From Luteitalea pratensis (GTDB taxonomy: Bacteria > Acidobacteriota > Vicinamibacteria > Vicinamibacterales > Vicinamibacteraceae), in assembly GCF_001618865.1 (NCBI RefSeq), contig NZ_CP015136.1, forward strand, positions 4,871,001 through 4,935,000: a stretch of 64,000 nt of DNA, written 5' to 3'. The translations under genes were made by a program, and so were the position numbers. The notes beneath the pieces were generated by a model. That model made no database searches. It saw nothing but the letters and a program-made list of their open reading frames with translations, and was not told the DNA's origin. Below are positions 3,181 through 19,766 of this stretch, piece after piece. Positions within the stretch are counted from its first letter, which is position 1, and each line of letters opens with the position of its first letter.

Positions 3181-3194
3181 GGAGCTAACGTCCT

Positions 3195-3699: not shown

Positions 3700-4773
3700 A
3701 TGATCACGCTCAATCAGGCACTGTTCGCCCACCTCCAGCGTCGCGATGATCCCAAGCAGGGGCTCCTCGACGCGGTTCAAGCGGCGGTTCAACTCGAGCG
3801 CGCGACGCTGCCGCCGTACCTCTATGCGCTTTATTCGTTGGATCAGGAAAAGAATGGCGTGATTGCGGAGCTGATTCGCAGTGTCTTCATGGAGGAGATG
3901 CTTCACGTCGCCCTGGCGGCGAACCTTCTGAACGCACTCGGCGGGGATCCGAGGATTGCGTCCTTCGATACGGTGCCGCGCTATCCTGGCCCGCTGCCCG
4001 GCGGCGTCGAGGACGGGGTGGTCGTGCATCTCGCGCCGTTCTCCGACTCACAGCTCGACACGTTCCTGCAGATCGAGGCGCCCGACAACGTGCTGGCGTT
4101 CCGGGTTGCCGGCGGCGAGGTCGCCGGCGAGCAGCCGCGCCGGACGATCGGGCAGTTCTACCGCGGCATTCGCGACCGCATCGGTGAGCTCGCCGACGGC
4201 GGCGTCAACCTCTTCACTGGCGATCCGGCCAGGCAACTCGCCACGGCGCTCGAGGGCGTCGTCAAAGTCAGCGACGTGGCGTCCGCGCGCGCGGCGATAG
4301 ACACCATCGTGGAGCAGGGAGAAGGTACCGAGCAATCGCCGTTGGAAGCGGCTGCCGCGACGCTGCCGGCTCACTATTATCGATTCGCGGAAATCAAGAA
4401 TGGCAAGGAGTTGATTCGCAATCCGGACGCCCATCCGACGGACCCGCCAGAGGCTCAGTTCATCTACGGCGGGGCGCCCATCGTGTTCGACCGAGATGGT
4501 GTCCTGCCGCTGCCCACCGATCCCAAGGCTACGAGCTTTGCGGAGGGCTCAGTGGAACGTACCAGGATTGATGCGTTCAACCAGACCTACAGCGCGATGC
4601 TCGTCGCGTTGCAGGCGGCGCTCACGGGAGCACCGGCGACGATCTTCGGCGCGGTGAGGCTGATGCGCCAGATGTCACAGCAGGCCGAGGAGATGGCCGC
4701 CCTGGGCATCGGTCCGACGTTCGAGTACGGGGCGATGGTCGGCGGACGCTTCAGTTACACGCCGCCGGCCTGA
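3700..4773 (+). CDS. Ferritin-like domain protein (VioB C-terminal type)
   Basis: The 357-residue product begins with the ferritin-like four-helix domain found in iminophenyl-pyruvate dimer synthase (VioB/RebD family). Candidate diiron ligands are E33 in QLERATLPPYLYALYSLD and E65/E66 with H69 in FMEEMLHVALAANLLNALGG. Family context: VioB couples oxidised tryptophan units in violacein synthesis, but stand-alone versions of this domain are widespread and mostly uncharacterised, so only an oxidoreductase-type role can be proposed. No signal peptide is seen. The ATG overlaps the stop of an upstream residual frame (ATGA at 3700-3703) and GAAGGAG lies upstream at 3682-3688. It ends 12 bases from the convergent DUF1036 gene. 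It is one of few intact genes in a decayed zone. Confidence 0.8.
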   Translation: MITLNQALFAHLQRRDDPKQGLLDAVQAAVQLERATLPPYLYALYSLDQEKNGVIAELIRSVFMEEMLHVALAANLLNALGGDPRIASFDTVPRYPGPLPGGVEDGVVVHLAPFSDSQLDTFLQIEAPDNVLAFRVAGGEVAGEQPRRTIGQFYRGIRDRIGELADGGVNLFTGDPARQLATALEGVVKVSDVASARAAIDTIVEQGEGTEQSPLEAAAATLPAHYYRFAEIKNGKELIRNPDAHPTDPPEAQFIYGGAPIVFDRDGVLPLPTDPKATSFAEGSVERTRIDAFNQTYSAMLVALQAALTGAPATIFGAVRLMRQMSQQAEEMAALGIGPTFEYGAMVGGRFSYTPPA

Positions 4774-4785
4774 CGCTGCCGGCGC

Positions 4786-5211
4786 TCAGTCGATGCGCAC
4801 CGAACCGATCCTCCTGACCTGCCCGGGCGACGGCCCCAACGTTACGACCATGCCGTTGAAGGCGTGCTGGCCGTTGTCGGCGTTCTGGAAGTCGAGCCCG
4901 ACGAAGTTCGGTTGCTGGTTGCAGCCCGTGTTGTCGTCGTAGCACTGGCTGAACGCGACATCACGAATGCGATACCAGCGGTTCCCGGTGCCGTCCCAGG
5001 TCGCTCCACCCGAGTTCTTGAACTCCTGGGCGTAGAACGACGCATTCCGGTTCACGCGGCGCAGATCGACGTCCCACAGCTTGCGGGATTGGCCCGGATT
5101 GACCGCCCACCAGCCCTGTTTCCGGAATCGCGTGGGGCCGCAGCCATTGTCACCGTATACAAGTGCGATCCATACCGGGTTGCGGTACAGATTCTGGAAC
5201 TCGAGGGCCAT
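4786..5211 (-). CDS. DUF1036 domain-containing protein
   Basis: The 141-residue product shows the DUF1036 pattern: an opening LEFQNLYRNPVWIALVYGDN, the GWWAVNPGQSRKL core, paired cysteines (GCGPTRF and QCYDDNTGCNQQ) and a beta-rich, Trp/Tyr-rich body (WDGTGNRWYRIRD). The family is uncharacterised; members are usually small exported or surface beta proteins. No clear signal peptide is present in this copy. AAGGGA precedes the ATG by about eight bases on the minus strand. A small disordered reading frame lies 39 bases upstream in the same direction, and the gene converges with the ferritin-like gene. Confidence 0.75.
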   Translation of the reverse strand: MALEFQNLYRNPVWIALVYGDNGCGPTRFRKQGWWAVNPGQSRKLWDVDLRRVNRNASFYAQEFKNSGGATWDGTGNRWYRIRDVAFSQCYDDNTGCNQQPNFVGLDFQNADNGQHAFNGMVVTLGPSPGQVRRIGSVRID

Positions 5212-5250
5212 GCTGGCATCCCTTCTGGGCGGGGTCTTACCTGTGGCGGA

Positions 5251-5427
5251 TCAAGAGCTGCTGCCGGCCGGCAGGCTCTCGGGCAACTCGTCGTGCGTGG
5301 GGGCCGTACCTGCATCATCGGCGTCGCGGTTCCGCGATGCTGAGGGCGCCTGGCCAGCGGGAGTCCGGTTGTCGGGCGGGTCTCCGTCGGGTGCGATGGG
5401 CTTCGGTGTCGGCATGGTCCTGTCCAT
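5251..5427 (-). CDS. Small disordered protein (58 residues), tentative
   Basis: A short minus-strand frame with several possible starts (GTG at 5454, ATG at 5427 or 5415) encodes a Pro-, Asp- and Ser-rich, probably unstructured peptide (KPIAPDGDPPDNRTPAG). It lies in line with, and 39 bases upstream of, the DUF1036 gene. Composition alone does not exclude a chance frame; the tandem position is the only support. Confidence 0.35.
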   Translation of the reverse strand: MDRTMPTPKPIAPDGDPPDNRTPAGQAPSASRNRDADDAGTAPTHDELPESLPAGSSS

Positions 5428-5606
5428 TTCATGAAAGGGGTTAGTCCTCGGCACTGACTAACTGATAGAGCTCGCCTTGCGTCGCTCCGGTCGTCTATCC
5501 GGAGCCCGAATCGACAGCGGTGGTAGCCGGGCGCAGCGTGACAAGTTCGGGCGCCGACGTCAAATCCGGAGTCATTGGAAATTCCCGCCGGTCGCCCACA
5601 AGCCGA

Positions 5607-6344
5607 TCAGGCCAGATCACGCTCCGACATGTAGAACTCTCGAGTGGGCACGACCTCGACGGCGACCTTCGCGTTCGCCACGTTCGCCGTCCCGGACACG
5701 GCCTTACCCTCGACCAGCCGGCTGGCTACCGTGTTCGCCTTGCCGGTGAAGCGCACGGTGACGCCGTGCCGCAGCTCATCGTCCGTGAACTGACGGCCCC
5801 GGATCTCGGCCGACACGACCTGATCGAAATCCCCCTTCCTGGTCAGGAGATGCGCGAGAAAGAGCTCCTTTCCCTTGCCGAAGAGGACGTAGGCGAGACC
5901 ATCGAGGGGCGTTGGCAACGGGAGGAGTTTCTGGACGAAGATCACGTTGCCGATGGTGACGTCGACAGCAGCGCCGATTGATGCCGGCTCGTCCGGGTAT
6001 TCGGCCGGCTGCTCGAAATGGCCGCGGAACAGCTCGCCGCTGATACGCTTGCGCTTCGGATCCGGTGGAAAGAGCTCCGGAAGGACAAAGGGATCGGGAG
6101 CAAACGTGTACACCCGCGTGTCCGGGTGGCTGTGGCGATCCTCCCTGTAGGTTCGTTGCGGATCCGCCCCGGCCTGGGAGAAGGTGCCCTCGAGGATGGT
6201 CTGATAGTCGTGCGGCGACATGAACATGGGCAGGTGATAGAAGAAGGCCGTCTCCTGGCCGAGCACGAGCATTCCGTGGCTGACCGCTCGGTCCACCCGG
6301 GCCGAATCGTGGGCGTGATCCGTCATATGCGCGTGCTGATCCAT
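5607..6344 (-). CDS. Conserved protein of unknown function, 245 residues
   Basis: I do not recognise a named family, but the frame is clean and has strongly patterned motifs: a His-rich start (MDQHAHMTDHAHDSARVD), VLGQETAFFYHLPMFMSPHD, DRHSHPDTRVYTFAPDPFVL, ELFRGHFEQP and a long beta-rich C-terminal half. The His and aromatic richness near the N-terminus could indicate metal binding. No signal peptide is visible. The ATG at 6344 is chosen because the upstream 25 codons overlap the NTF2-like remnant. It is followed in the same direction by the small frame at 5427 and DUF1036, so these may be one transcript. Its survival among broken catalase-like genes suggests it is still under selection. Confidence 0.65.
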   Translation of the reverse strand: MDQHAHMTDHAHDSARVDRAVSHGMLVLGQETAFFYHLPMFMSPHDYQTILEGTFSQAGADPQRTYREDRHSHPDTRVYTFAPDPFVLPELFPPDPKRKRISGELFRGHFEQPAEYPDEPASIGAAVDVTIGNVIFVQKLLPLPTPLDGLAYVLFGKGKELFLAHLLTRKGDFDQVVSAEIRGRQFTDDELRHGVTVRFTGKANTVASRLVEGKAVSGTANVANAKVAVEVVPTREFYMSERDLA

Positions 6345-6396
6345 GTGATGCCGCCTTTCGTTGATTGAGACCGACGAGTAGACAGGGTCAGGTGCT

Positions 6397-6649
6397 TCAA
6401 CCGGCCTCGTTCCGGGCACCGGTCATGAAGGCGTCGATCTTTTCGCGCGCGGTCTTCCTGACTCGCGCGCACCCGCTCTTCGACGTCGATGGGGAGGCTG
6501 CGGCCAGGCAGCTGTTCCAGCTTGTCCTCGAGAAAATCGAATGCGTGCGCGCCCTTTCCGATCGGGCCTACCGCCTGGTCAAACCACTTCCAGAACTCGC
6601 AGTCGTCGCGATGCTCGCGGATCAGCCCGCCTTCGAATCGGAACTTAGA
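6397..6649 (-). pseudogene. NTF2/SnoaL-like protein, C-terminal fragment
   Basis: KFRFEGGLIREHRDDCEFWK, then WFDQAVGPIGKG, matches the C-terminal strand-helix of NTF2-like (SnoaL) proteins, whose usual form is FxxGLIxEHRDxxDFWxWxxQALG. The final segment (KIDAFMTGARNEAG, ending at the TGA at 6397-6399) is in a shifted frame, indicating a frameshift near 6440. The N-terminal half is missing; the homologous part begins directly at the end of the adjacent catalase pseudogene. Confidence 0.65.
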
Positions 6650-7530
6650 GTCGATGCCACATCGCACCGACCTCGTCGCCGTGTAAATCGAAGCCGATGT
6701 CGGCGAACTCCACCTCCGGATGCAGACACGACTGCATCGCACGGTAGCACCGGCAACGAAACTCTCGAAGTAACGCCTCAAGGTGCGCGAGTTCAGGTAC
6801 GTCGCGTCGGGTTCCTGCCGAATCGTCCCTGTCGAGGTGTGGCGCGTGGACGACGGCACCTGCGCCTTGGGTGCGCTGACCGATGACGGTTTGACGAAGT
6901 ACTTCACGACGTGGCGACCAACTGATATGGCGTCTGACTGAAATACTCCCGAGTCAGTGGAGACGTCGCTGTGGAGAAAAAGCCGCCCAGCGCCGGGAAT
7001 TCCGTCCCGAGCCGAACCCTGTGCGCCGCGTCCAGAGCCATCAGTTCTGCCTCGGTGCTGCCGGCCTGCATTGCCTTGGCTCGCTCGGCGGCAAGCTCCC
7101 TTTTCAAGCCCAGGAATCGGAGGAAGTGCATCGCGTCCCGGGCGAAGAAGACGGGATGGTCCGCCAACACGAAGTCCTGTGTGGTCGCGGCTGCCTCCCC
7201 GGCCCTGCCTTCGTTGGCCAGCAAGTCCAGCAGTTTGATCGCCATGCCGTGAACGTCAGGCTTGCGGTCGTCCGATTCCCTGCCGTTCGAGAAGCGAATC
7301 CACGCCGGGAAGGAACCGGACGTGCTGAAAATTCCAGCCCGATATGCCTCAGGCACATCGTGCACACGGAATGTCGCCTGCACGACGCCGTGCGTCTTGG
7401 GATGCTGACTGCGTACACTGGTGCCGACCTGCTGGTGCACCGCAGCCATCGCGGCGCGAAGCTTCTGAAACAGAACATCGTCTTGTACTGTGGCCAGGGC
7501 CGGGCCCGGAGCGTCAGCGTCAAGAGTCAT
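6645..7530 (-). pseudogene. Catalase-family (SrpA-like) gene, broken by frameshifts
   Basis: From an ATG at 7530 about 200 residues read cleanly: RSQHPKTHGVVQATFRV (the RxxH heme-pocket motif), GSFPAWIRFSNG, VHGMAIKLLDL, TQDFVLADHPVFF and EYFSQTPYQL. The frame then stops at 6904, while the continuation (VKYFVKPSS, then DATYLNSRTLRRYFESFVAG) is in another frame and the last part (FADIGFDLHGDEVGAMWHRL, stop at 6645-6647) in a third. Two frameshifts are therefore needed. The family is related to heme catalases that act as peroxidases or catalases in the periplasm or cytosol; this copy cannot make the full fold. Compare the intact relative at 12020. Confidence 0.8.
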
Positions 7531-7872
7531 GTGTCGTCTCCAGTCGGTGCGCGTCACTCGGCCCCGGCCGTTGATGCCGCGCGCGCCATGTCGCACGCGT
7601 TCCCACAGTCCAATTATTTCGGCTACGGTTATTAAACGCCGGACGCGTCGAAATTGCACACTTCCACGATCAGCCTTTCACCCTCGGGCAACCTGCCGCA
7701 TTCGTGGCCACGCGGAGTTCGCCCGTGCGTCGGACGAGTTCCCGGAGTCGATGGTCATCGCGCTGCTTCGGCGGAGTGCAGTCGGCATGCCTGATCATCG
7801 CCGCGCGCTCAATGCCCAAGGTACACGCGACCTCTGGCAGCCTGGCGACACCTCGCGCAGCGCTGTGCCCAA
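7531..7872. other. No gene seen
   Basis: The stretch between the catalase pseudogene start and the glyoxalase-fold fragment shows no recognisable coding or structural signal. It probably includes the lost N-terminal half of the following fragment. Confidence 0.4.
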
Positions 7873-8142
7873 ATGTCCTGGCGCACAGCAGGCATCTTGC
7901 TCACCAATGCGGCGTTCCGTGCCGCCCATGGTTTCCAGGGGCCGGTGATGATCTGGCTCAACCTCAACAGCAGGCCTGACGTCGACCAATCGTTCGAGAG
8001 GTGGAAGGACGCCGGCGCAACGATCATCGCGGCCGTCCAAGACAAGCCCTGGCAGCTGCTCGAGTTCACTGTGGCGGACCTCGACGGCAATCAGCTGCGC
8101 GTGTTCTACGGCTTCAGCCGCGAGTTTAGCGACCGACGCTGA
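7873..8142 (+). pseudogene. VOC (glyoxalase-fold) protein, C-terminal half
   Basis: The 89-residue frame contains the second beta-alpha-beta-beta-beta unit of a vicinal-oxygen-chelate protein: PVMIWLNLNSRPDVDQSFER, DAGATIIAAVQDKPW and FTVADLDGNQLRVFYGF, ending in the typical D-x-x-G-x-x-L-x-x-x-Y. The first half, which contributes the other metal ligands, is absent upstream. It is either a truncated remnant or a short single-module protein; the surroundings favour a remnant. Confidence 0.55.
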
Positions 8143-8496
8143 ACATCCTGAGGGCGTTCCGGCGCGCGCGCAGCGCAAGGGCACGGCTGAGCAGCATGAG
8201 CCCGGGAAGGTCGTCTGGCCGTCTGTCCCATCCGGTCCTCTCGAACGTTCTCTTTACTGAGGCGGACTCGCGTCGAGTGGTCCCGCCGATGGCGCGCAGG
8301 TGAGGCAGCGTTCCGGGATGCTGCAGCCCCGTCATCACCTGGTCAATAGTGACGCTCGCCCGGCGGAATCAGTCGTTCGAGGTATCCGTTCTTGACCTAC
8401 TTGCATTGATCTCCATCCGGTCGGTGACCACGACGCGGGATTAGCTCCATCTCTTTGCTTCGGGCGAACTTGGGCGTGGCGCATAGAGACGAGGGG
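8143..8496. other. No gene seen
   Basis: No supported gene, hairpin or repeat was recognised in this gap. Confidence 0.35.
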
Positions 8497-8637
8497 TCAT
8501 GCGCTTCGCCTCGCCGTCGACACGGCCAGTGTGCCGGTGCCAAGGAGGATGAATGTGGAGGGCTCCGGAACAGCTGTTGGACAGATAGCACAAGTTGCGG
8601 CGCCGTTCAGTTCTTGATGTTGGAACCGTCAACGGAC
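8497..8637 (-). pseudogene. PEP-CTERM sorting-signal remnant
   Basis: On the minus strand a frame ending at 8497 reads VPEPSTFILLGTGTLAVSTA followed by RRSA and a stop. This is the classic PEP-CTERM tail: V-P-E-P-S/T, a hydrophobic helix, then a basic end, recognised by exosortase in exopolysaccharide-producing Gram-negatives. The upstream coding part is broken by stops in all frames, so only the signal survives. Confidence 0.6.
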
Positions 8638-9227
8638 GCTACAGCCCACGGTACAGCGCGCCACGACTTGACGATTCTCACCGCGCTCGACCCCACCTTG
8701 CGAAGCTCGTTCAATGCACATTCGCGGGAACGCGGAAGCTTCAATCTACTGGACACCACGTCGGGTGCGCACGAAGTCCGCGGGGCTATTCGAGCACTGT
8801 GGACGCGGAGGGCCGCGGAACGAAGTCCCTTGGGCTATCCCATCAGCGACGAATTCTCCACCGGTCGAGGAGACGAGCGGCGCAGCAAATTCGAGCGTGG
8901 CTCGATCAGTTGGACAAGCGCTCGCGGTGCTCGTGTCGACGGCGAAGTCGCCATCGATCCTGGCACTGCACTGCATCCCGTCGACGAGTGAATGACTCGA
9001 TGGCGAGGCGGCGCCGAGCACATGAACGAGATGCGGCTGTGGTCGATCTGTCCCATTGCTGCGGGTGACACTTCGGACCTGCGCGGCGACAATTATGAGA
9101 TCTGCCGGCAAGAGGCCCACCGGTATTTTCTGCGTCCAGGGAGTCAACACGTTTGCCAAATGAGTCCATGTTCCTGGCCTTTCTTTAGCCCTGCGCCGTC
9201 GTGCACTGACGTCTGCTCGCGCTCAAC
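8638..9227. other. Decayed sequence, no gene assigned
   Basis: A minus-strand frame at 8746-9159 (137 codons, beta-type composition, for example DGDFAVDTSTASACPTD) may be the eroded body of the PEP-CTERM protein whose tail lies at 8497, but I could not align it to a family. Nothing else is supported. Confidence 0.35.
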
Positions 9228-9548
9228 TTATTTCCGTGAGGAGCGTTCGTCGAGTACCCAGCAGTCGCGGAAGGACATCTCGCAGGTGGCAAGTCTCTGT
9301 AGGACTTCCGACGGAATGGTTCGAGCCTCCAATGCGACCGCGATTCTGAAGCCCACGTCCGTGTGGCTTGTTTGGACTCCGTCCTGAAGCTGCTGGGAAT
9401 TAAGGAAGGGGCGAATTTGTGACAAGTCATCCAAATAGCCTCCCCCTCTCAGTTCGGGTGCGTGACCTCTCAGGTACGACCCCCCTATCATTGAGCGAGA
9501 GAACGTGCTCTTACCAAGACACCATTCCCACACGTTACCGATGGCGTC
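9228..9548 (-). pseudogene. Formylglycine-generating-enzyme (SUMF1) family, C-terminal fragment
   Basis: DAIGNVWEWCLGKS, RSMIGGSYLRGHAPELRGGG and SHTDVGFRIAVAL reproduce the C-terminal signature of FGE/SUMF1-domain proteins (D-x-x-G-N-V-W-E-W, then R-G-G-S, then GFR). The N-terminal two thirds are missing: just upstream (toward 9557) the sequence becomes the 5' end of an IS5-type transposase in another frame. An insertion or deletion event therefore joined the two. Confidence 0.7.
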
Positions 9549-9556
9549 CGGGAGGA

Positions 9557-9722
9557 CCACAATGTCACGTCGCCCCGACTGACGAGGCCGCGTTCGTACA
9601 CCCGCCAGTTCACCACCCGATACTGCGTTGTGTACGTGGGATGCACCTGCGACTTCATCGCACGATCATGCCGTGGGAGGACCGGCAACCCAACAGAAGA
9701 CCAGCAGCCGTGCACCAACGCC
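9557..9722 (-). mobile_element. IS5-type insertion sequence, left-end remnant
   Basis: From an ATG at 9658 the minus strand encodes MKSQVHPTYTTQYRVVNWRV followed by YERGLVSRGDVTLW, the conserved N-terminus of IS5-family transposases (..YKVKNWxEYxxALVxRGxITLW..). Homology stops at about 9557, where formylglycine-generating-enzyme sequence begins, so some 90% of the transposase is missing. The region upstream of the ATG shares GCACGGCTGCTGG with a second remnant near 20930, probably part of the element's left end. Confidence 0.6.
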
Positions 9723-9987
9723 GCTCGCCGATGCCGCCCACCGCCTCAAGGCATACGGACGTCCGTGCGACGACACCTCGCGCGGAAACGTACCGAATGT
9801 CGATGAGCACACCTCCGCTGTACGCATCCGTGCGTACCAGCGTTCAGGGATACAGCACATTCGCCGGCGTGATACGTGGGCGGTCGGGCACACGGACCCT
9901 CTCTGGAGGGTGCGCTGCCGGAGCGGCGTACGGCCTGCCCCGATCGGCATGTGCACCCTACGTCGGAGCGAAGAAAGGTTTGAGCGA

Positions 9988-11568
9988 ATGGCTACGGAGA
10001 CATGCACGATCAAGACGGTGCCCACTGATCAGTTGGTTGCAGCCGCCAGCAATGCCATCGAGGTAAATCCCGCCAATGCCACTGTCCCCCAGGCGCTGCA
10101 GCGAGCGCTGCCGGACGAGGTGATTCCGCCGGACCATCTGGCGATCCTGACGGCAAAGTACTGGGGATCGGCGGGTGTGAAGCTGACCGTCGGCTTCCTC
10201 GACAATCCTCCGGCCGATCTGCGCGCCCGTATCGTCAGCCACATGAATGCGTGGAGTGCCACGGCGAACGTCCAGTTCGTCGAGACGGCCGTCAACCCGC
10301 AAGTCCGCATTGCCAGGACGGCCGGGGACGGCTATTGGTCGTACCTGGGCACCGACGTCAAGCTGATTGCCGCCGGCCAGCCGACGATGAACCTGGCATC
10401 GTTCACCATGGCCACGGCCGACTCGGAGTTCCACCGCGTGGTGCGTCATGAAGCCGGCCATACGCTCGGCTTCCCGCACGAGCACAAGCGCACGGAGATC
10501 GTCAACCGCATCGATCGCGAGAAGGCTATCGCCCACTTCATGGCGACACAGGGATGGTCGCGCGAGAAGGTGATCGCGCAGGTCCTGACGCCGCTCGACA
10601 CGTCGGCCCTGATCGCCACCGCCACCGCCGACCCCAACTCCATCATGTGCTATTGGCTGCCGGCGTCGATCATGAAAGACGGAGTTGCCGTGAACGGCGG
10701 CCCCGATATCAACGCGCTCGATGCGCAGTTCGCGGCCTCGGTGTACCCGAGGTTCGCCAACTGGCAACTGCTGGACAACAATCCCTCGACCGGCGCGATC
10801 GCCGCCGATGGAGCGGCGCTGTACCAGATGCACAAGAATGGCCGCATCTGGAAATACACCGGCACGCCGCTGACCGGATGGCAGGAGCTGGACAACAATC
10901 CGGCGACCAAGAAGATCGCAGTCGCAAACGGCAATCTCTACCAACTGCACAACAACGGCCGGATCTGGAAGTACGTCAGTCCACCGATGACAGGGTGGCA
11001 GGAGATCGACAACAACCCGGCGACAGTGGACATCGTGGCAACCAGCGGAGATCTTTATCAGCTGCACAACAATGGTCGCATCTGGAAGTACACCGGCGTG
11101 CCGCACACCGGCTGGCAGGAACTGGACAACAATCCGGCGACGAGACGGATCGCCGCAGCAGGCGGCCAGCTCTATCAGCTCCACAGCAACGGCCGGATCT
11201 GGAAATACGTCGGCCCACCGATGACCGGTTGGCAGGAGTTGGACAACAATCCGGCGACCACGAGCATCCTGGCCTCGGACGGCGACCTCTATCAAATGCA
11301 TGGCAACGGTCGCATCTGGAAGTACACCGGCGTTCCGCACACGGGCTGGCAGGAATTGGACAATAACCCGAGGACGCGGCAGATCGCCGCCGGCGGCGGG
11401 CGTCTATACCAGATCCACACTGGCGGAGCCATCTGGAAGTACGTCGGACCACCGCTGACAGGCTGGCAGCAGATTGACGGCAACGGCGCATCGACCAGCA
11501 TCGCCGCGTCAGGTAACAGCCTGTATCAGCTGCACAACACCGGGTTGATCTGGCGATACACCGGATAG
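9988..11568 (+). CDS. Astacin-like (M12) metalloprotease with seven C-terminal repeats
   Basis: The 526-residue product has a zinc-protease domain (about 1-256) with HEAGHTLGFPHEHKR (H154, E155, H158, H164) and the Met-turn SIMCYW (M220), the arrangement of astacin-like metzincins. Residues 259-526 are seven 39-residue repeats (WQELDNNPAT..LYQLHNNGRIWKY..TG), of the tectonin/tachylectin-like beta-propeller type, likely to bind carbohydrate or a surface partner. No N-terminal signal peptide is evident (MATETCTIKTVP), so export or release by another route is possible. The ATG at 9988 is chosen over longer versions because GAAAGG (9973-9978) lies nine bases before it and the homologous domain starts there. 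A related protease domain sits in the caspase operon 5 kb downstream. Confidence 0.85.
   Translation: MATETCTIKTVPTDQLVAAASNAIEVNPANATVPQALQRALPDEVIPPDHLAILTAKYWGSAGVKLTVGFLDNPPADLRARIVSHMNAWSATANVQFVETAVNPQVRIARTAGDGYWSYLGTDVKLIAAGQPTMNLASFTMATADSEFHRVVRHEAGHTLGFPHEHKRTEIVNRIDREKAIAHFMATQGWSREKVIAQVLTPLDTSALIATATADPNSIMCYWLPASIMKDGVAVNGGPDINALDAQFAASVYPRFANWQLLDNNPSTGAIAADGAALYQMHKNGRIWKYTGTPLTGWQELDNNPATKKIAVANGNLYQLHNNGRIWKYVSPPMTGWQEIDNNPATVDIVATSGDLYQLHNNGRIWKYTGVPHTGWQELDNNPATRRIAAAGGQLYQLHSNGRIWKYVGPPMTGWQELDNNPATTSILASDGDLYQMHGNGRIWKYTGVPHTGWQELDNNPRTRQIAAGGGRLYQIHTGGAIWKYVGPPLTGWQQIDGNGASTSIAASGNSLYQLHNTGLIWRYTG
10762..11565 (+). repeat. Seven in-frame 117-bp tandem repeats
   Basis: Each unit begins at the Trp codon of WQ(E/L/Q)(L/I)D and ends at TG. 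The first unit is two residues longer than the others and the last is cut short after WRYTG. Units ending KYV.PP(M/L)TG alternate with units ending KYTG(V/T)P(H/L)TG, and units 3 and 5 are close copies, which suggests growth by duplication of two-unit (234-bp) blocks. Confidence 0.9.
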
Positions 11569-11905: not shown

Positions 11906-12019
11906 GCCGCCCTGGGTTGACGAAGCTGGCCAAGGTCCTGGCAACGGGATCTCGAGCGGACCTTGGGTTGGAGAAGTGCCAGTGGGCCGAGCGGGCGCCG
12001 GGGGCGCCGAGGAGAGACC

Positions 12020-13126
12020 ATGATTGAACCGTTGAGTCCCGTCGCCGGCGTGGAGAACGTTCCGCAGGGTGAGACCGAGCAGATCGAAGAGATCGCAGGC
12101 CTGATGCGCCAGCTGTTGGAGAAGCGCTATGGCAGCGCCCCGCCGTGTCTACGGGGTGTCCACCCGAAAGCGCATGGTTGCGCACGCGCAACGTTGACGG
12201 TGAACGCCGATCTGCCAGACGGGTTACGGGTCGGTTTGTTCGCAGACGCCGGAGCCAGCTACGAGGCAGTCGTACGGTTCTCCAATGCCGCGGCGCTCGT
12301 TGGCCCAGACTGCCAGGACACCGTGAAGAACGGTGTCCTGGCGGCACGCCAGCACGGCAGTCGTGGGATGGCGGTCAAGATCTTCGGGGTGCCGGGCGAA
12401 GGGCTTACCGATGACGAGCCACACACCCAGGACCTGCTGATGGTCAATTTCCAGGTGTTCCCTTTCGCCAATGTCGCGGATTACCTGGTCCTCACTCGCC
12501 TCCAGCTCAGGGCCGAATCAGCGCCGCCGAGCGCCCCGAGTGCAACGGCGGGACAGGATGTTGAACCCGACAACGTGAGACTTTTCAAAGCGTTCGGCGC
12601 CGAACTGGTCAAGACTCAAGGCGGCGCGCTACGCGCCACGAGAGCACGCGAGATCAGCACGGCCATCCAGAGCAGCGCCATGACCGATCCGGTCTCGAGC
12701 AAGTACTTCAGCGCGGCGCCCTTCATGTTCGGGACCGATCGCGTGATGAAGTTCTCGGTCCGACCGGAGGCGCCCGCAGCGGACACGCCGCTCGCTGACA
12801 CGCTCGATCCCGATTACCTGCGCACGGCACTCGCGAACCGGTTGCGCGCAACGGATGTATCGTTCGAGTTGGCCGTACAGGTCCGTGAGCCGTCACAAGA
12901 GGCCGCAATCGAAGACGTGACCCACGACTGGGCGGACGTTGCCTACCAGCCTGTCGCTCGCATCATCACCCCGAAACAGGACACCGAAGATATGGACCTG
13001 CGTCAACGATGCGAGACTCTATTCTTCACGCCGTGGCATTCACTGATCGACCATCGCCCGGTCGGCGGCATCAACCGGCTGCGCCTCGCGGTCTACAGGG
13101 CGAGTGTGGAGCGGCGACGACAGTAG
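12020..13126 (+). CDS. Catalase-family protein (intact)
   Basis: The 368-residue product is a compact member of the catalase superfamily (SrpA-like). CLRGVHPKAHGC (R45, H48) is the RxxH heme-pocket motif; AVVRFSNAA, GSRGMAVKIFG, TQDLLMVNFQVFPF and SKYFSAAPFMFGTDRVMKFS follow in family order, and WHSLIDHRPVGGINRLR closes the domain. Canonical catalases are about 480 residues; this class lacks the wrapping and C-terminal domains and often acts as a peroxidase or organic-peroxide enzyme. No signal peptide is seen. GGAGAG (12011-12016) supports the ATG at 12020. Two decayed relatives lie at 1985 and 6645. The adjacent RoxA-like di-heme gene is convergent. Confidence 0.85.
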   Translation: MIEPLSPVAGVENVPQGETEQIEEIAGLMRQLLEKRYGSAPPCLRGVHPKAHGCARATLTVNADLPDGLRVGLFADAGASYEAVVRFSNAAALVGPDCQDTVKNGVLAARQHGSRGMAVKIFGVPGEGLTDDEPHTQDLLMVNFQVFPFANVADYLVLTRLQLRAESAPPSAPSATAGQDVEPDNVRLFKAFGAELVKTQGGALRATRAREISTAIQSSAMTDPVSSKYFSAAPFMFGTDRVMKFSVRPEAPAADTPLADTLDPDYLRTALANRLRATDVSFELAVQVREPSQEAAIEDVTHDWADVAYQPVARIITPKQDTEDMDLRQRCETLFFTPWHSLIDHRPVGGINRLRLAVYRASVERRRQ

Positions 13127-13256: not shown

Positions 13257-15389
13257 TCAGATTGACTTCAGATATTCGAGGATCGCCCGCTTTTCCTCTG
13301 GCGACGGTTCCCGCCCTTGGAAATGCGCGGCGCCGGCGTGACCGCTGCGGCTGTTGCCGTTGTCGTCCACGCCCGACCGGCGCACCGACGTGATCAGCTT
13401 GAAACACGTGGGAGGGCGATTCGCCGCGCCGCAGATCGCTTCGCCCTTCTTGACGTCAACGCCCACCGCACGGGGATCGAACTCATTGTGGCCCACCCAG
13501 AAACTCTCGGGCCGTGTCTCGGGGAACAGGACCGATTCGAGGGTGGGCCAGGCGCCGTTGTGGCCATAGGGTGAGGTGAACGCGATGCCGTTGAGCGGCC
13601 GAGCCCGGTAGACCTTCATCTGCGCCAGCGTCGGCGGCTGCGGCCGTGCTCGGAAGAAGGCGAACTTGTCACGATCGCTTGCCGCGGTCTGCCGATCCGA
13701 GTACGCGTCGAGGAAGTAGGAGTCCACGGCGCTGGCAGTCGACCCCGCGAGGAGCATCAAGGTCATCACCGAGCCGTCCGTCCGGCGCAGATCGTTGCCC
13801 GGAGTGAGTTGAGTCTTCCTGAGTTTGTCGAATTGCGCGTTCACGATCGCTTGTCCAGCCAACGTCACGTCGCGGCCCTCGAGCTCGGCGATCCGGGCAG
13901 CAAGCAACGCCGCCGGGCCTCCGACCCTTTCGCGGACGGTCGCGAGAATCCCATCGCGCATTTTGCCATCGAGGATCTCGGTCGCCCGTGGATTGAGCGT
14001 GTAGCGGGAACCCGCGTGAGCCTTGATGAACTGGTCGTCCGTACCCACCTTGTCGAACGGCACCTTGGTGACCCGCCATCCGTATCGAGTCCGACCGAGG
14101 TAGCTCTCCGAAACGAAGTGGTTATCAAGGTCACTCGGATCTTCCGTGCCGCCCCAGTTCTCGCCGACGGTGTCCCACTGCGCGCTGAACTTGGCGAGAT
14201 ACGGCTGCGCGTGACACCCCTGGCAGTAGGTGACGAACGCTTTCGCGCCCGCAAGGGCAAGGTTTTCGTCCACGGCTGGGAACTTCGGCGACCACCTGGG
14301 ACTCTCGACCCAGTCGAGAGCCTCCTCGAGCGCATACAGATTCTTGACCTTGGCTGTCGAGCGGACCCGCCATCGCCCTGAGGAGTCCTTGTACGTTTCC
14401 GAGTCGCCGAACACACCGAGGACTTCGCCCACGTTGCGCGTGAGAGAGTTCGATGTCAGACAGTTCGTTTGTACGCACTGCAAGCGCGCCGCGTTCCACA
14501 CCGGTGGCACGCTCACCGGCACCTGGATGGGCTTGATGCTGGCCCGGTCACTTCCGGCCGGATCGTAAGGCCGCGAAGGGTCATTCGAACTGCCGTACTG
14601 GTGCCCGAACACTTCGTTCAGGATGTGGCCAACGGCGTCCAGGCGACCGGGCCCCGCCTCCCGACCTTGTGGCACCTGCCCGCGCTCGCGCAAGCCGTCC
14701 ATGCGCGCCTGGGCGGCGGCCAGGCGCCTGGTCGCCTTCACTTCGTCCACACCTTTCGCCGCCATCCGCTCGAGGTACCCGGTTCCCTTTGGATCGTGGG
14801 AGGCCTTGGAGACCGCCGCGTTCAGGTCCGAGATGAACCGCTCGTAATCGAAGTTCGCTTGCCCGGCGTGGACGAGAAAACGTTCGCCCTTGAACTTCAG
14901 GTCGCCCGTGTGACACGCGGCGCACGTCAGGCCGACGTACTCTTGGGTCAGGTCCTTCGCGTGCTTCTCGAGCGGCGTATAACCCTCGCCGCGCCTGTCC
15001 TTCACGACGCCGATGGGCAGGTCCAGGGTCTCTTTCTCGCGGCCGCCCAGCTCCTGGTAGTCGTCCGCGTAGAGAAAGCCGTAGGCCTCGAGACTCTGCC
15101 TTGCGGAAAAGAGCGTGCCATCCGACGGTCCGGCAATCGACATGAACACGTCGAAGTCGAGCAGGTGTGAGCCCTGCGTGGTGAAGTACCACGTCCGGGC
15201 GAGTCCCTGCGCATCCGCGCCCTTTCTCCAGTGGTTGAGAAATCCCGCCTGTGGTACGGCAGACGCGCGTGGTGTCCGGAGCGCTGGCGCGGGCTGCGTG
15301 CATGCACCCGCTACCGGTGCCAGGACACAGATGGTGAGAGGCGCTGATCGTGCGACCCGAGAGAGGGCTGAGAAGAGACGGCGACCCAT
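13257..15389 (-). CDS. RoxA-like di-heme cytochrome c peroxidase-family protein
   Basis: The 710-residue product carries two c-type heme motifs, CAACH (156-160) and CQGCH (389-393), with the spacing and flanking blocks of RoxA-type proteins: VPPVWNAARLQCVQTN, RNVGEVLGVFGD, and the C-terminal RPLNGIAFTSPYGHNGAWPT and ESFWVGHNEFDP. RoxA cleaves polyisoprene oxidatively; most relatives have unknown substrates, so dioxygenase or peroxidase activity is only a family inference. The N-terminus (MGRRLFSALSRVARSAPLTI) is a signal peptide; a cysteine at residue 30 may allow lipidation, though the lipobox is weak. The ATG at 15389 has GGAG close upstream on the minus strand. It converges with the catalase-like gene and follows the caspase operon after a 286-base gap. 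Confidence 0.8.
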   Translation of the reverse strand: MGRRLFSALSRVARSAPLTICVLAPVAGACTQPAPALRTPRASAVPQAGFLNHWRKGADAQGLARTWYFTTQGSHLLDFDVFMSIAGPSDGTLFSARQSLEAYGFLYADDYQELGGREKETLDLPIGVVKDRRGEGYTPLEKHAKDLTQEYVGLTCAACHTGDLKFKGERFLVHAGQANFDYERFISDLNAAVSKASHDPKGTGYLERMAAKGVDEVKATRRLAAAQARMDGLRERGQVPQGREAGPGRLDAVGHILNEVFGHQYGSSNDPSRPYDPAGSDRASIKPIQVPVSVPPVWNAARLQCVQTNCLTSNSLTRNVGEVLGVFGDSETYKDSSGRWRVRSTAKVKNLYALEEALDWVESPRWSPKFPAVDENLALAGAKAFVTYCQGCHAQPYLAKFSAQWDTVGENWGGTEDPSDLDNHFVSESYLGRTRYGWRVTKVPFDKVGTDDQFIKAHAGSRYTLNPRATEILDGKMRDGILATVRERVGGPAALLAARIAELEGRDVTLAGQAIVNAQFDKLRKTQLTPGNDLRRTDGSVMTLMLLAGSTASAVDSYFLDAYSDRQTAASDRDKFAFFRARPQPPTLAQMKVYRARPLNGIAFTSPYGHNGAWPTLESVLFPETRPESFWVGHNEFDPRAVGVDVKKGEAICGAANRPPTCFKLITSVRRSGVDDNGNSRSGHAGAAHFQGREPSPEEKRAILEYLKSI

Positions 15390-15675
15390 ACTCCGAACTC
15401 CAGTCTGGAGGTTGGCTCCATGTTGCTCCGCGCCGACGACGGATGCTTGCACGGCCGACCGGCTCGTGACGCCGCTGCCGAGGCATGCTCGGCGGGAGAA
15501 CGCTCACCATCAGGGCAGTCCCGCGCAGGTCTTGCAGTACGGCTCGCTGGTCCACGCGGAAGTATGGCGAGGCTCCAGTCCGCCTGCGGCAACGGTCGCT
15601 GGCCCTCGGACAGGGCGGGAATGCTGCTGCCAAGGCTCCAAGGCGACGGTACAGCAGTGCACAACCATGCAGGCG

Positions 15676-16248
15676 TTACGGGTACCGCCGCCCCTGGTAG
15701 CGATTGGTTTCGAGTAACGGTGACGGCGTCACGCCTGTAATGCGTGCGAACTCCGACGACGTCAGCACCTCCACATGGACGCCCATCGCGGCGAGTCTCG
15801 ACCACTCGTCTGAGTCGATGCGCGCGCGACCCTCTGTGTCGGAGCCGCGTCGCAGGGCGACGACTTCTACCCACAGGCGACGGTTTCTCGGTCCGAGACC
15901 GCTGACAAATCGCTCCGGCGGCACGATCAGGTAGTTGCGCGGATCGTGCGACAACGCGGGCATCCACTCTCCTCCGCTTACGAGATCGGCGTCTCGCGGC
16001 GACTCCTCTCTCACCCGCACGGCAACCTGCACCGCCCTCTGGAGCGGTTGAAACCCGATCCAGAACACCTCTCCGGTTCCGACGCCCGCGAGCACGACAT
16101 CCTGACCCGCCGCAAGCGGTGCCCTGCCGTAACTGGGCCGCGGATCATGATCCGATGGAGCACTCAGAAGCGTTCGCTGCAGTGAGATCTCGAGCACCTC
16201 ACCGAGCACGATCCCATCGTCAGCGATTCGCCACGAGTGCTCCGCCAC
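15676..16248 (-). CDS. Hypothetical protein, third gene of the caspase operon
   Basis: The 190-residue product matches no family I know. It opens as beta-rich (SWRIADDGIVLGEVLEISLQ), has AAGQDVVLAGVGTGEVFWIG and RNYLIVPPERFVSGLGPRNR, and ends basic (ETNRYQGRRYP). There is no signal peptide, membrane segment or catalytic motif. It starts 28 bases after the stop of the metalloprotease-fusion gene on the same strand, so cotranscription with the caspase and that fusion is likely. By position it could be a substrate, effector or inhibitor of one of the two proteases. Confidence 0.6.
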   Translation of the reverse strand: MAEHSWRIADDGIVLGEVLEISLQRTLLSAPSDHDPRPSYGRAPLAAGQDVVLAGVGTGEVFWIGFQPLQRAVQVAVRVREESPRDADLVSGGEWMPALSHDPRNYLIVPPERFVSGLGPRNRRLWVEVVALRRGSDTEGRARIDSDEWSRLAAMGVHVEVLTSSEFARITGVTPSPLLETNRYQGRRYP

Positions 16249-16276
16249 TACCTGCCGCCTGCTATCCGGTACATGC

Positions 16277-18697
16277 CTAGGTGCACGGCTGCTTGCGCGG
16301 CCCCTGGAATGGATAGTTGCACTGATTGTGCGCGAACTTCTTGTCCACCTCCGAGAGCTTCTCGTTCGGCTTCGAGCTGAAGCCGTCCGTCGTCCAGCTC
16401 TGGGGAATGGCGTACAGCATTATCGACTTCTTGTCCAGCGACGTGCCGTTGATCTGATCCTGGTCGTACGTGTCGAACATGTTGTGCTCGATCGTGGCCG
16501 CATCCCAGAAATTCGGTGACCCGCTGAGATCGGCGATCACTGCCGGCTTATTCCACTTGATGCCGCCCTCGGGGTTCTGGTGTTCATGGATGAGACCGAT
16601 GGCGTGTCCGAACTCGTGCAGCACCACACCCTCGTCCTGCCATCCGAGGTTCATCGTCGGTTGCCCGACTGGAATGCTGGCGCAGTCAGTACCTATGTAC
16701 GACCAGGCGCCATCGTTCTCGTCGAACGTGATCCTGATCTCCGAGTTCTGGTCGTTACCGAACACGAGCTTGATGTTGGCGTGTTCGGCCCACTGTGGCG
16801 CGAATTGCTTGACGATGTCCTTCTGCTCTGGTGTGCCGCTCATGAATCGCACGCGAAGCGTCTTGCCGACATCCCAGAGCTTCGCGATCTCGAAGGCTGC
16901 ACGTGTCCGCGCACCGGCAATGGGCGCCGATGGACGAACCTTGTTGAGGTCTTTCGGCAGAATGCGATCGAAGCAGACTTTGGGCGCCATGGGAATTTCT
17001 CCTTTGAGTAGTGTCGACAGCCGGTCGACTGCGGTTGTGACCGCGCTTTGGGGAATCCCGAGCGCCTTCACCATGGATGAGTCGAGCAGGAACTGATCCC
17101 GCGCGTCCTTTGCCCACTCGAGCACCTGGTTGGCGTCGGGAAGATGACGGCCCGTCACCCAGCCGTATGCGGAACTGTACAGCCGCCCTGACAGATTCGA
17201 AGGTGACAACGGCGACAGCTCAGAAGCGAGCTGCGACTGGCGCGCGGCGGACGCGAGATAGCGGAGCACGCGCGTCTCCGATGCGTCCAGATCGAGGCGC
17301 CTGGCGAGAGCCGTGATGTAGCGGTCGGCGTGGTGTCGCGGAAGCAACTTCCCGAGCTTGTCTATGACCTCTGCGATCTGCTTGCCGCGATCGGCGCCGA
17401 ATGCCACCGAGCTCTTGCCTGACGCCATCGATCTCGCCGCACGGACCGGCCTCGTTTCTGCGGGAGGTGCTTTCCACACCAGCCATGCGCCGCCGCCCCA
17501 CGTGAGCGTGGCGATGCGCGCGGAGTACGAATCCATCGGAATGATTCCCGGATGTTCGACCGACTTGTCGATGACCAGTTGCCAGCTCGATCGAAGCATG
17601 GGCGGCATGGGGAATGCGGCGTCGCCTTGCCAGCCGGCCGCGTATCGGAGCGCAGCCACGTCGGGATGGCCGGGCACCAACCGCTCGAGGTTCCTGACGA
17701 CCTTCTGCAGTAGATCGATGTCCACCTTTGCCTCTAACAGGAGGAGGTGACCACCGAGGATGCCCAGCATCGGGTTGGTGAACTTCTCGGCGAGCAGTCT
17801 GTCCACCGAGGTCCCTTCTGACTGAGGCACGGCGTCGGCTTCAGCGACTGCGTCGCGCAGGGCGGCAATCGGCGCGGCGGGAGTGCGCGCGAAGAGCGCC
17901 ACTTTTGCAGCCTCGACCCAGTCGACAGCCGACGCGTCGATGCTACAGCCCCTGCCCTGCAGCGACATCAGCACCGCGCCTCGCCGGAGGTCTGCGCCCT
18001 TGAAGCCCTCGGTGCCGTAATCGGTGGGCGTCAGCAGCACCTGCGTCTGCCATCCTGCGACGGCGTGAACGGCTTGCTCGAGGCGCCCGAGCGAGCCTGC
18101 CGCGGCGCTGAGGACGTAAGTGCCTGGTACAACGGCAATGGTGTGGGCGCGCGCGCCGGCGCCTTCCTTGTACCAGCCCGCGTCCTTCCCGAAATCTGCG
18201 ATGACGAGCCCGTTGCTGTCCTTCACCTGGACGTCGAAGATGCCGACGTGCGTGGAGGGGTCTTCCTTGCCGAGCAGTCGCGAGAAGATGAACAGTTCCG
18301 AGCCCTGGCCCGGTGCCGTGTGCACCTGCTGACTGACGTCGGCAACCCATTGCATCAGCTTGCGTCCATCGTCTGTTGTGCGCTGCGGCAATGCCGTCGT
18401 GCGGGTCGAAAGCTGAGGAACGGGAACGATGCACTCGGCAGTCCCCCCGCGGACGCGCACGGTCTGCTCCTGCACGCTGCGGCCCGCCTTGTATTGCAAC
18501 TCGTACAACCCTGGCGCCACCTGCACGTCGAGCACGCCGACGGCGTGCGCAACCGCGGCGAAGTTACCATCGAACAGCATGATCTCGGCCGTCGGGTGGC
18601 CGGCGTTGGCGACGAGTCGGACCGTAGACGACGGCTGCGGCGACGATGCCGAAGACCAGCGGCGCGACATGCTCCCGATCCAGTCCGCTACACCCAC
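16277..18697 (-). CDS. Large protein with C-terminal astacin-like protease, caspase partner
   Basis: The 806-residue product is a fusion. Residues about 20-240 form PEGA-like or carboxypeptidase-regulatory-like beta-sandwich segments (VLDVQVAPGLYELQYKAG, IAVVPGTYVLSAAAGSLGR). Residues about 300-370 are helical (NPMLGILGGHLLLLEAKVD). Residues about 575-800 are a zinc protease with HEFGHAIGLIHEHQNP (H694, E695, H698, H704) and Met-turn SIMLYAIP (M760), the same family as the protease at 9988. No signal peptide is visible. The GTG at 18697 starts 4 bases after the caspase stop, with GTGGAG upstream, implying coupled translation. The N-terminal 550 residues could act as a pro-region or as an adaptor to the caspase, whose own C-terminus carries a similar beta-sandwich. 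Confidence 0.8.
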   Translation of the reverse strand: MGVADWIGSMSRRWSSASSPQPSSTVRLVANAGHPTAEIMLFDGNFAAVAHAVGVLDVQVAPGLYELQYKAGRSVQEQTVRVRGGTAECIVPVPQLSTRTTALPQRTTDDGRKLMQWVADVSQQVHTAPGQGSELFIFSRLLGKEDPSTHVGIFDVQVKDSNGLVIADFGKDAGWYKEGAGARAHTIAVVPGTYVLSAAAGSLGRLEQAVHAVAGWQTQVLLTPTDYGTEGFKGADLRRGAVLMSLQGRGCSIDASAVDWVEAAKVALFARTPAAPIAALRDAVAEADAVPQSEGTSVDRLLAEKFTNPMLGILGGHLLLLEAKVDIDLLQKVVRNLERLVPGHPDVAALRYAAGWQGDAAFPMPPMLRSSWQLVIDKSVEHPGIIPMDSYSARIATLTWGGGAWLVWKAPPAETRPVRAARSMASGKSSVAFGADRGKQIAEVIDKLGKLLPRHHADRYITALARRLDLDASETRVLRYLASAARQSQLASELSPLSPSNLSGRLYSSAYGWVTGRHLPDANQVLEWAKDARDQFLLDSSMVKALGIPQSAVTTAVDRLSTLLKGEIPMAPKVCFDRILPKDLNKVRPSAPIAGARTRAAFEIAKLWDVGKTLRVRFMSGTPEQKDIVKQFAPQWAEHANIKLVFGNDQNSEIRITFDENDGAWSYIGTDCASIPVGQPTMNLGWQDEGVVLHEFGHAIGLIHEHQNPEGGIKWNKPAVIADLSGSPNFWDAATIEHNMFDTYDQDQINGTSLDKKSIMLYAIPQSWTTDGFSSKPNEKLSEVDKKFAHNQCNYPFQGPRKQPCT

Positions 18698-18701
18698 GGC
18701 G

Positions 18702-19766
18702 CTACTCCACGGTGACTCGTCCGGCCTCTTGCACGTCGTTCGACAAGCCCGGGCGAACTTTCAACAGAGCCTCAGTGCCGTCGCTGAAACGCACGCTGTA
18801 CAAACCGGGCTTCAGCGACACCTCCGTCCTGGTGGCGGACGCGGTCACGCGCACGGGCGGCGTTAGCGGACTGTCATTGCCGTCACGCACGTCGCCGGCC
18901 TTGCCGTGGAACGTCTGGTTCCACTCGATCGTGACCTTCGGCAGCGTCGTACCGGTCCCGCTCTCGAACAGCACGATGTCGTCGAGGTTGCCGAGGTTGA
19001 ATCGCGGGAACTGCGGCACGTCCCCTTCGCGCAGCTTTGAGATCGAGAGCTGCAGGGCGCCTTTCAGACCAAGCGCCGTGAGCGTGCCGTTGGTCTGACC
19101 GGCCCCGCTGCGCAGCACCTCGAGCAGTGCGTAGGTGAACACGCCGCGGGATTCCGGTGGCGAGCCCAGCGGCTGCTCGAACGACGGCGCGTCCCACTGC
19201 GTCGCCAACACGTTCAACGTCTTGACTTTCGTCGGATCGCCGCCCTTCACGGGCGAGAACGGGACCGGCGCCTGTTCGATGTCGTCCAATGCATTGCGGC
19301 AGCAATCCATGAACAGGATGACCTCTTCGAAGGCATGCGACTGCCTGAACCACTCCGCGTACGCCGGCCCCGCCAGGTGCAGCCCGGTGCTGCCGTGGTC
19401 GGCGTTAGCCATCAGCAGCGCCGCACTGTCCAGACTGTTGCTGGTAACGCGAGGGGTGATGCCGTGTCCAGCCAGGTAAATGTAGAGGCGCCGCCCGACG
19501 CGCGGGAGCTTCTGAAAATTCCGGCGGGTAAGATCGGCCAGCTCCCTGAAGTGTACGTTGACCGCCTCGATGGCCGGCTGGGTGAGTGCCGGCGGAACAT
19601 CCGCCGACACGACATTCGGCGAATACACCTCCCGAATGTTTTCGGGAGGCACGCTTCCGTGCTCAACAAGCCAGTTGCGAAAGGCCTGCGCGTCTTTCAC
19701 GGGGCCTTCCAATCGATCGAAGGCCGGATAATTGTTGATGCCGACCACCACTGCGTAATCGTTCAT
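18702..19766 (-). CDS. Caspase-like peptidase (C14 family)
   Basis: The 354-residue product has a caspase-fold domain over about 1-250. It begins MNDYAVVVGINNYPAFDRLE, with a putative catalytic His in YIYLAGHGI (H101) and Cys in ILFMDCCRN (the D-C-C pattern; C156 probably the nucleophile). Bacterial relatives mostly cleave after Arg or Lys and act in stress or antiphage-type responses. The C-terminal 90 residues form a beta-sandwich (TEVSLKPGLYSVRFSDG) resembling the PEGA-like domains at the start of the next gene's product. There is no signal peptide, so it is cytoplasmic. It is the first gene of a three-gene minus-strand operon. Confidence 0.9.
   Translation of the reverse strand: MNDYAVVVGINNYPAFDRLEGPVKDAQAFRNWLVEHGSVPPENIREVYSPNVVSADVPPALTQPAIEAVNVHFRELADLTRRNFQKLPRVGRRLYIYLAGHGITPRVTSNSLDSAALLMANADHGSTGLHLAGPAYAEWFRQSHAFEEVILFMDCCRNALDDIEQAPVPFSPVKGGDPTKVKTLNVLATQWDAPSFEQPLGSPPESRGVFTYALLEVLRSGAGQTNGTLTALGLKGALQLSISKLREGDVPQFPRFNLGNLDDIVLFESGTGTTLPKVTIEWNQTFHGKAGDVRDGNDSPLTPPVRVTASATRTEVSLKPGLYSVRFSDGTEALLKVRPGLSNDVQEAGRVTVE

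Follow-up and report, generated by a model that had tools for sequence, protein, structure and literature searches.

The operon at positions 15,676 to 19,766 of a 64,000-nucleotide stretch of the Luteitalea pratensis genome (contig NZ_CP015136.1, positions 4,871,001 to 4,935,000; hereafter the window) encodes a caspase-family peptidase, an 806-residue protein that ends in a zinc metallohydrolase (zincin) domain, and a 190-residue protein, P0003. The genome is 7,480,314 bp long and consists of one contig. An initial annotation made from the letters of the DNA alone had described a three-gene operon, and all three open reading frames (ORFs) are confirmed, on the minus strand, together with both gaps, which measure 4 bases between the caspase gene and the 806-residue gene and 28 bases between the latter and the 190-residue gene. 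Comparison with other genomes indicates that the constant unit is the caspase together with the front part of the 806-residue protein, here called X, and that the zincin is one of several partners. Judged from gene content and order, we lean slightly towards reading the operon as a variant of a cytosolic, caspase-centred conflict module (cell-suicide or antiviral) with interchangeable hydrolases.

The caspase and protein X as a conserved pair

A search with the 806-residue protein split it in two, with residues 18-423 and 599-800 matching separate genes in genome G048. In that genome, from the same order (locus L012), a phosphoesterase-zincin fusion is followed by a caspase and then by a stand-alone X homologue. 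The gene order is zincin, caspase, X in genome G320 of the same phylum (L013), and in an acidobacterial metagenome-assembled genome (L016) a caspase and X face a zincin and a P0003-like gene on the opposite strand. The free-standing zincin gene of L016 begins at the point equivalent to the X/zincin junction of the window protein. The 806-residue protein is thus best described, from these alignments, as a separate family X joined to a zincin. Of the "PEGA-M12 fusion" named in the initial annotation, the intact zincin end and the shared beta-domain stand, whereas the front part is a family of its own that occurs alone elsewhere.

Eighteen loci that hold both a caspase and X were compared (the window, L012, L013, L016, L017, L020-L027, L037, L040, L041, L048, and L049). 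They span Acidobacteriota, Pseudomonadota, rhizobial plasmids, and one IMG/VR contig, in lengths of 6.6 to 64 kb, and gene starts in unannotated loci were chosen by the analyst. Searches with the X or X-zincin sequence returned 14 loci beyond the window, and in all 15 the caspase lies directly upstream of X or is fused to it, in agreement with the earlier claim that the genes belong together. Searches with the caspase alone added three loci (L027, L048, and L049), each with an X-like gene next to the caspase; the X match is weak in L027 (E 1e-13) and L048 (E 1e-16), and the L048 caspase is split over two overlapping ORFs. Ten plasmid records match the caspase, and X is present in 9/9 examined; the tenth, NC_017324.1, and NZ_CP098809.1 lie outside the examined set. 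In L027 (S. meliloti ml28 pSymA, 8142-10100), the annotation lists the X-like protein that follows the caspase as a pYEATS-domain protein, with DUF2235 and lysozyme genes upstream.

The frames of caspase and X overlap by 8-23 bases in 13 of the 15 unfused pairs measured, the exceptions being the window, with its short gap, and L020 (94). L021 and L022 encode caspase and X as a single polypeptide and are sisters in both the caspase and the X tree. Pairwise distances among caspases correlate with those among X proteins (r 0.66 over 17 loci; 0/5000 permutations as high), a measure that does not separate co-evolution from shared descent. A chance neighbourhood is rejected because the linkage is kept wherever X is found and is a fusion in two loci. 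The initial annotation had made its idea depend on conservation of the gene pair across genomes and on the lack of a role already assigned to it. Its parts come through, with caspase and X recurring together, whereas the exact layout of a caspase gene followed by an X-zincin fusion is absent elsewhere among the loci found and is seen only in this genome.

The caspase matches Pfam Peptidase_C14 (35.3 bits; cut-off 21.4) and the PADLOC "caspase" model (E 1.8e-15), and its profile matches metacaspase structures (best E 5e-8). Residues His-101, Asp-154, and Cys-156 are identical in 17/17 aligned cassette caspases, an alignment that omits L048, with Asp-154 two residues ahead of the cysteine. The His-101/Cys-156 dyad, putative at first, is intact. 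As for a complete PADLOC defence system, the "caspase" model alone matches, with none for the 806- or 190-residue protein. The same genome holds two other C14 matches, at loci different from the cassette; another system of the same genome was considered and rejected, both loci being free of X, zincin, and P0003-like genes within 16-kb stretches. At the thresholds used, X is also missing from L044 and L046, whose caspases are more distantly related.

In Pfam, NCBIfam, and PADLOC, protein X has only weak matches that stay below cut-off, and the best E value of its profile against Protein Data Bank (PDB) sequences is 0.08. Its structure model has a mean pLDDT of 54, with about 73-86 in the N-terminal beta-domain (residues 21-90). 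In a single hhalign comparison, the caspase C-terminus matches the first 110 residues of X with a probability of 97.1 and an E value of 7e-11. Residues 110-250 of X form a second, weaker copy of the beta-domain, with a probability of 90 in comparison with the first copy and of 69 with the domain of the caspase; the helical rest of X has no match to the beta-domain in profile comparison. The idea of a shared PEGA-like beta-sandwich was right as to a common domain, because these profiles match; Pfam's PEGA model matches neither the caspase nor the 806-residue protein. Like beta-domains may bind one another in caspase and X. Coordinates are collected in Table 1.

Table 1. Genes and domains of the operon, in window coordinates
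Feature	Position	Strand	Basis
Caspase-family peptidase, 354 residues, ATG start	18702..19766	minus	ORF; Pfam C14
C-terminal beta-domain of caspase, residues 272-354	18705..18953	minus	Homologous to N-terminal domain of X (hhalign)
806-residue protein, GTG start	16277..18697	minus	ORF; X front part and zincin end
Protein X, residues 1 to about 574 of the 806-residue protein; two beta-domains, then mostly helical	16976..18697	minus	Stand-alone or differently fused in relatives
Astacin/MMP-like zincin domain, residues about 575-806	16277..16975	minus	Pfam Astacin; AbsR1 sub-threshold; free-standing in L016
190-residue protein (P0003), GTG start	15676..16248	minus	ORF
P0003 as short member of a beta-sandwich family of about 300 residues	15676..16248	minus	Alignments, blastp, structure model

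Exchangeable hydrolases and the 190-residue protein

Seven of the 18 loci have the zincin, whose gene immediately precedes that of the caspase in L012, L013, L021, L022, and L040, is fused behind X in the window, and is convergent in L016. An alpha/beta-hydrolase gene lies directly upstream of the caspase in nine others, with a GHSxG motif in the seven checked. The two hydrolase types are never found together in the 18 stretches, and L025 and L026 have neither. These assignments, and those of P0003 below, use profiles built partly from loci later scanned with them. Other hydrolases also accompany the pair: X is fused to trypsin and phospholipase D (PLD) domains in L020 and to trypsin and Endonuclease_NS domains in L023, trypsin-Endonuclease_NS genes lie near X in L026 and L040, and a subtilase gene lies upstream in L025. 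Loci of the alpha/beta-hydrolase type fall in at least two tree groups. One, L020/L023/L024, has support of 100 in both trees; the other consists of L037 and L041, to which the X tree adds L017 with support of 96. Support for the deep nodes is weak in both trees.

The zincin itself matches Pfam Astacin (36.7 bits; cut-off 22.5) at residues 622-710 of the 806-residue protein. Its zinc motif HEFGHAIGLIHE at residues 694-705, which contains Glu-695, completes the HExxHxxGxxH signature, and a Met-turn, SIMLY, follows at 758, so that the description of an intact astacin-like domain closing the protein holds. HExxHxxGxxH with a Met-turn is the signature of metzincin proteases. The whole 7.48-Mb genome has two Astacin-family matches, both inside the window; the second zincin, at 9628-11568 on the plus strand, belongs to the same family as the X-fused copy and is followed by tandem propeller-like repeats. 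A zincin in L015 (3425-4765) resembles this second copy and carries other repeats.

The closest named family is NCBIfam NF050131, "beta-glucuronidase AbsR1", at 127.7 bits, below its cut-off of 650. The name apparently comes from the study of SCO6992 and may mislead zincin annotation. SCO6992/AbsR1 of Streptomyces, the one characterised relative of the zincin family, is reported to bind zinc, to have beta-glucuronidase activity and no detectable protease activity, with skim milk and azocasein as substrates, and to affect antibiotic production; no caspase is mentioned in the available part of the report (PMC9705864). The "two-protease cascade" proposed at first is not supported as it was stated, since this relative is without protease activity, and a protease cascade is therefore unproven. 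The zincin could instead be a non-protease hydrolase such as a glycosidase, which would make the operon a caspase-regulated carbohydrate or envelope enzyme, as both the family name and the activity of SCO6992 suggest. Against this stand the complete metzincin signature and the dependence of glycosidase activity on a zincin fold on one report, and we consider this possibility quite unlikely.

The 190-residue protein has no Pfam match above cut-off, as its earlier label of "unrecognised" implied; it does align, however, to a widespread, unnamed beta-sandwich family as a short member. It was aligned to 8 long relatives, and to 14 with 19 invariant columns. The blocks shared in the latter alignment are an N-terminal RT...P block, a W-containing block, also N-terminal, and a C-terminal T...P block; the window copy is without the family's middle region and C-terminal tail. 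Its blastp match to the L014 member covers 62 residues at 34% identity (E 1e-6). The structure model is a beta-sandwich with a pLDDT of 79.5 and has no specific structural match in the PDB (best Foldseek E 6e-3); the best VIA-align row (Z 6.3, rmsd 4.1, 108 residues) is tied with MSP-domain rows and reflects a common beta-sandwich arrangement. The long P0003-like protein of L016 has a best E of 0.1 against PDB sequences.

Short versions of P0003 follow caspase and X in L021 (blastp E 8e-5) and, weakly, in L040 (E 0.001), and a long one lies beside the L016 zincin. In all, a P0003-like member is present in 4/7 zincin-type loci, one of them weak, and in 0/11 other caspase-X loci at the thresholds used. 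Outside the caspase-X loci, long members lie next to a zincin in L014, L044, and L046. No zincin was found beside the long members of L042, L043, L045, L047, or L070, nor in the 17 IMG/VR loci (L050-L066) that the P0003-like alignment matched among viral contigs, nine of them on contigs of 300-620 kb. The L016 protein alone matched no viral contig, and among viral-contig loci a caspase or X is found only in L049. A helix-turn-helix (HTH) gene lies directly upstream of the long P0003-like gene in the four IMG/VR loci examined (L050, L052, L054, and L055), and HTH genes also adjoin P0003-like genes in plasmid loci L042, L043, and L045.

Several of these loci combine the parts differently. The gene order in L044 is P0003-like, zincin, distant caspase, and an open frame of 1593 residues that includes a trypsin domain and matches PLD weakly. 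On a Kovacikia plasmid, L046 (3445-6429, minus strand) encodes a 994-residue fusion of an N-acetylmuramoyl amidase, an alpha/beta-hydrolase-like stretch, and a caspase, adjoined by a two-ORF zincin and a P0003-like gene. In the L014 island of genome G023 (3-7235), a zincin and a P0003-like protein are encoded together with a GMC protein resembling cholesterol oxidase, a patatin, and a 755-residue protein that contains trypsin, with no caspase of the cassette type within 12 kb.

Distribution and genome setting

The caspase-X pair has a patchy distribution that is partly linked to plasmids and integrases. The 806-residue protein has no match in four other genomes of the genus and two of the family. 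X was found in 4/396 Acidobacteriota and 3/398 Pseudomonadota genomes, with own and seed genomes counted; these frequencies are lower bounds because few candidates (three) were scored per genome. It also occurs on rhizobial and Cupriavidus replicons, including rhizobial plasmids. In the IMG/VR contig L049, which was found via the caspase profile, a hydrolase-caspase-X cassette starts 0.5 kb past two Phage_integrase-family genes and has DUF932 and YqaJ genes behind it; the X search itself found X in 0/41 viral-contig stretches. GC content is 62-66% over positions 1-21000 of the window and 66-70% over the next 19 kb, which is compatible with an accessory region around the cassette. Genes in the first 4 kb of the window appear broken by eye.

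Some relatives have defence genes as neighbours. L024 adjoins a PD-T7-1 homologue (E 1.4e-174), and L021 has, at a distance of about 4 kb, a candidate defence pair of the PDC-M01A/B type, which also resembles PtuA. These matches come from a PADLOC scan of proteins picked for a defence-like look and therefore give no unbiased rate of defence linkage. Matches to PD-T4-6 beside L013 and to helicases beside L017 and L024 were rejected as defence evidence because they reflect generic kinase and helicase domains. None of the window genes tested has a Pfam match to a gasdermin, CRISPR, or metallo-beta-lactamase (MBL) family.

Beside the cassette, at lower window positions, are a ferritin-like gene (3700-4773), a gene of the catalase family (6904-7659), a region that matches catalase weakly and under cut-off (11963-13126), and a RoxA-like cytochrome gene (13257-15452). 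The catalase-type and cytochrome genes would suit a module for proteolytic stress response or programmed death that reacts to internal damage, whether from oxidative, envelope, or starvation stress, with no specific phage link, as would the finding that none of the 10 window genes around the cassette matches a known defence gene in PADLOC at E 1e-5. The patchy distribution, the plasmid and integrase linkage, and the defence neighbours of some relatives are more in line with accessory conflict genes than with a core stress response, and a stress module is in our estimate doubtful.

The hydrolases might also be exported or released toxins for interbacterial or environmental attack, with caspase and X as their processing machine. 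Partners and neighbours, including those of loci without X, carry phosphoesterase (phospholipase C-like), PLD, DNA/RNA endonuclease, and amidase domains, all of which are common in antibacterial effectors; the G048 zincin is fused to a phosphoesterase, and the second zincin of the window carries a repeat domain. The three window proteins have no hydrophobic segment suggestive of a membrane anchor or of a signal peptide, the highest Kyte-Doolittle mean over 19 residues being 1.46, which speaks against export. Likewise, the annotations of five plasmid loci name no secretion-system or immunity gene, with many genes there given as "hypothetical" and not all of them classified. Attack cargo is accordingly an unlikely role for the operon.

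Proposed mechanism and relation to known caspase systems

If the operon is a caspase-centred conflict module, caspase and X would be its constant core, probably one complex held by their common beta-domains, with X as scaffold and sensor or regulator. A trigger would activate the caspase inside this complex, and the active enzyme would cut, probably after Arg or Lys, to free or activate the co-encoded hydrolase. In the window cassette, that hydrolase would be the zincin fused behind X, released by cleavage at the junction; elsewhere it would be a separate zincin, an alpha/beta-hydrolase, or a trypsin fused or linked to a nuclease or PLD domain. The 190-residue protein would be an accessory linked to the zincin and might serve as an inhibitor, as a chaperone, or as a subunit that binds substrate. 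Junction cleavage is proposed because orthocaspases are reported to cleave after basic residues (PMC6426788), because the X-zincin junction holds several basic residues, and because of the parallel with Canu described below. Cell death and an antiphage effect would be the outcome.

Several observations weigh against this model. Besides the lack of protease activity in SCO6992 and of defence matches among the window neighbours, PADLOC matched only two of 10 flanking genes from other loci, and these by generic helicase and kinase models. The caspase has no match in phage records at E 1e-3. Foldseek with the X model, whose pLDDT is 54, returned four rows at E 1e-3 or better, with TM scores by model length of at most 0.17 among the matches listed, and these were not interpreted. 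The X-zincin fusion is seen only in the window, and caspase release of the zincin from X therefore rests on one example. Finally, L046 is without X and has its zincin beside a hydrolase-caspase fusion; the parts can therefore also combine otherwise.

In Canu, the caspase CanA, which has a C-terminal Ig-like domain, forms a soluble complex with CanB, and together they activate the pro-nuclease CanC for antiphage defence (PMC12799240). The cassette resembles Canu as a small operon with a caspase that carries an extra C-terminal beta-type domain, a second co-encoded protein, and a presumed effector hydrolase, and some loci of either system lie in a mobile or defence context (PMC12799240). X, the constant partner, has no family match. 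As for Canu's Ig-like domain, the caspase C-terminus matches the N-terminal beta-domain of X, whose model is of low overall confidence. The effectors differ: in the window and its relatives they are a zincin or an alpha/beta-hydrolase and not an MBL nuclease, and the HxHxDH motif of a gated MBL-fold nuclease is absent from ORFs of at least 100 residues within 4 kb in 18/18 loci, as far as the stretches reach. In gasdermin and type III CRISPR caspase cascades, too, a caspase-family protease works with a co-encoded toxic protein. The cassette shares that arrangement with the protease-activated gasdermins and type III CRISPR cascades named alongside Canu (PMC12799240).

Caspases associated with VMAP, as in the MoxR-vWA-VMAP ternary systems, are reported always to have a neighbouring alpha/beta-hydrolase gene (PMC7159879), an arrangement that resembles the one in the nine hydrolase-type caspase-X loci. 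The constant partner in the cassette loci is instead X; no MoxR or vWA gene is present among the Pfam matches of 10 window neighbours or named in six annotated plasmid loci, only part of the flanking genes being scanned. Metallopeptidase domains are rare among the effector domains of vWA components, and there the context is different (PMC7159879). EACC1-caspase systems follow a similar two-gene logic, in which a constant unit with the caspase is combined with an effector domain that varies widely (PMC7159879). EACC1, however, is a 5' protein with a single transmembrane (TM) segment, and it is the caspase that carries the variable domain as a fusion (PMC7159879; NF047832), whereas the constant partner X lies 3', has no TM segment, and carries the fused effector. 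The window caspase scores 37.9 bits against NF047832, below the cut-off of 140 for the EACC1-associated subfamily, and no 5' EACC1-type gene is evident before it among the listed ORFs, with no dedicated EACC1 model run.

The caspase and alpha/beta-hydrolase pairing and the logic of a constant unit with variable effectors have already been described (PMC7159879, PMC8195603). No description of X, of the caspase-X core, of a zincin partner, or of this layout was found in the open-licence PMC papers searched, in keeping with the earlier remark that no caspase/M12-type pairing of this kind had been described. We tentatively put forward a broader possibility, that caspase and X form an undescribed cross-phylum platform for immunity or cell suicide. 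In such a platform, the repeated beta-domain would couple the caspase to its regulator, in a logic comparable to the homotypic adaptor domains of animal death signalling, and zymogen hydrolases would be plugged in; the window would then be its most compact form, with one caspase cut releasing the zincin as a killing metallohydrolase.

Few effector types have so far been described in bacterial immunity triggered by caspases, which is a young field. A core that swaps zincin, alpha/beta-hydrolase, and trypsin-nuclease or trypsin-phospholipase partners would show the caspase as a general initiator, and X would serve as a marker for further such systems. The compact operons of two to four genes, which include a natural caspase-adaptor fusion, would then lend themselves to direct biochemical tests.

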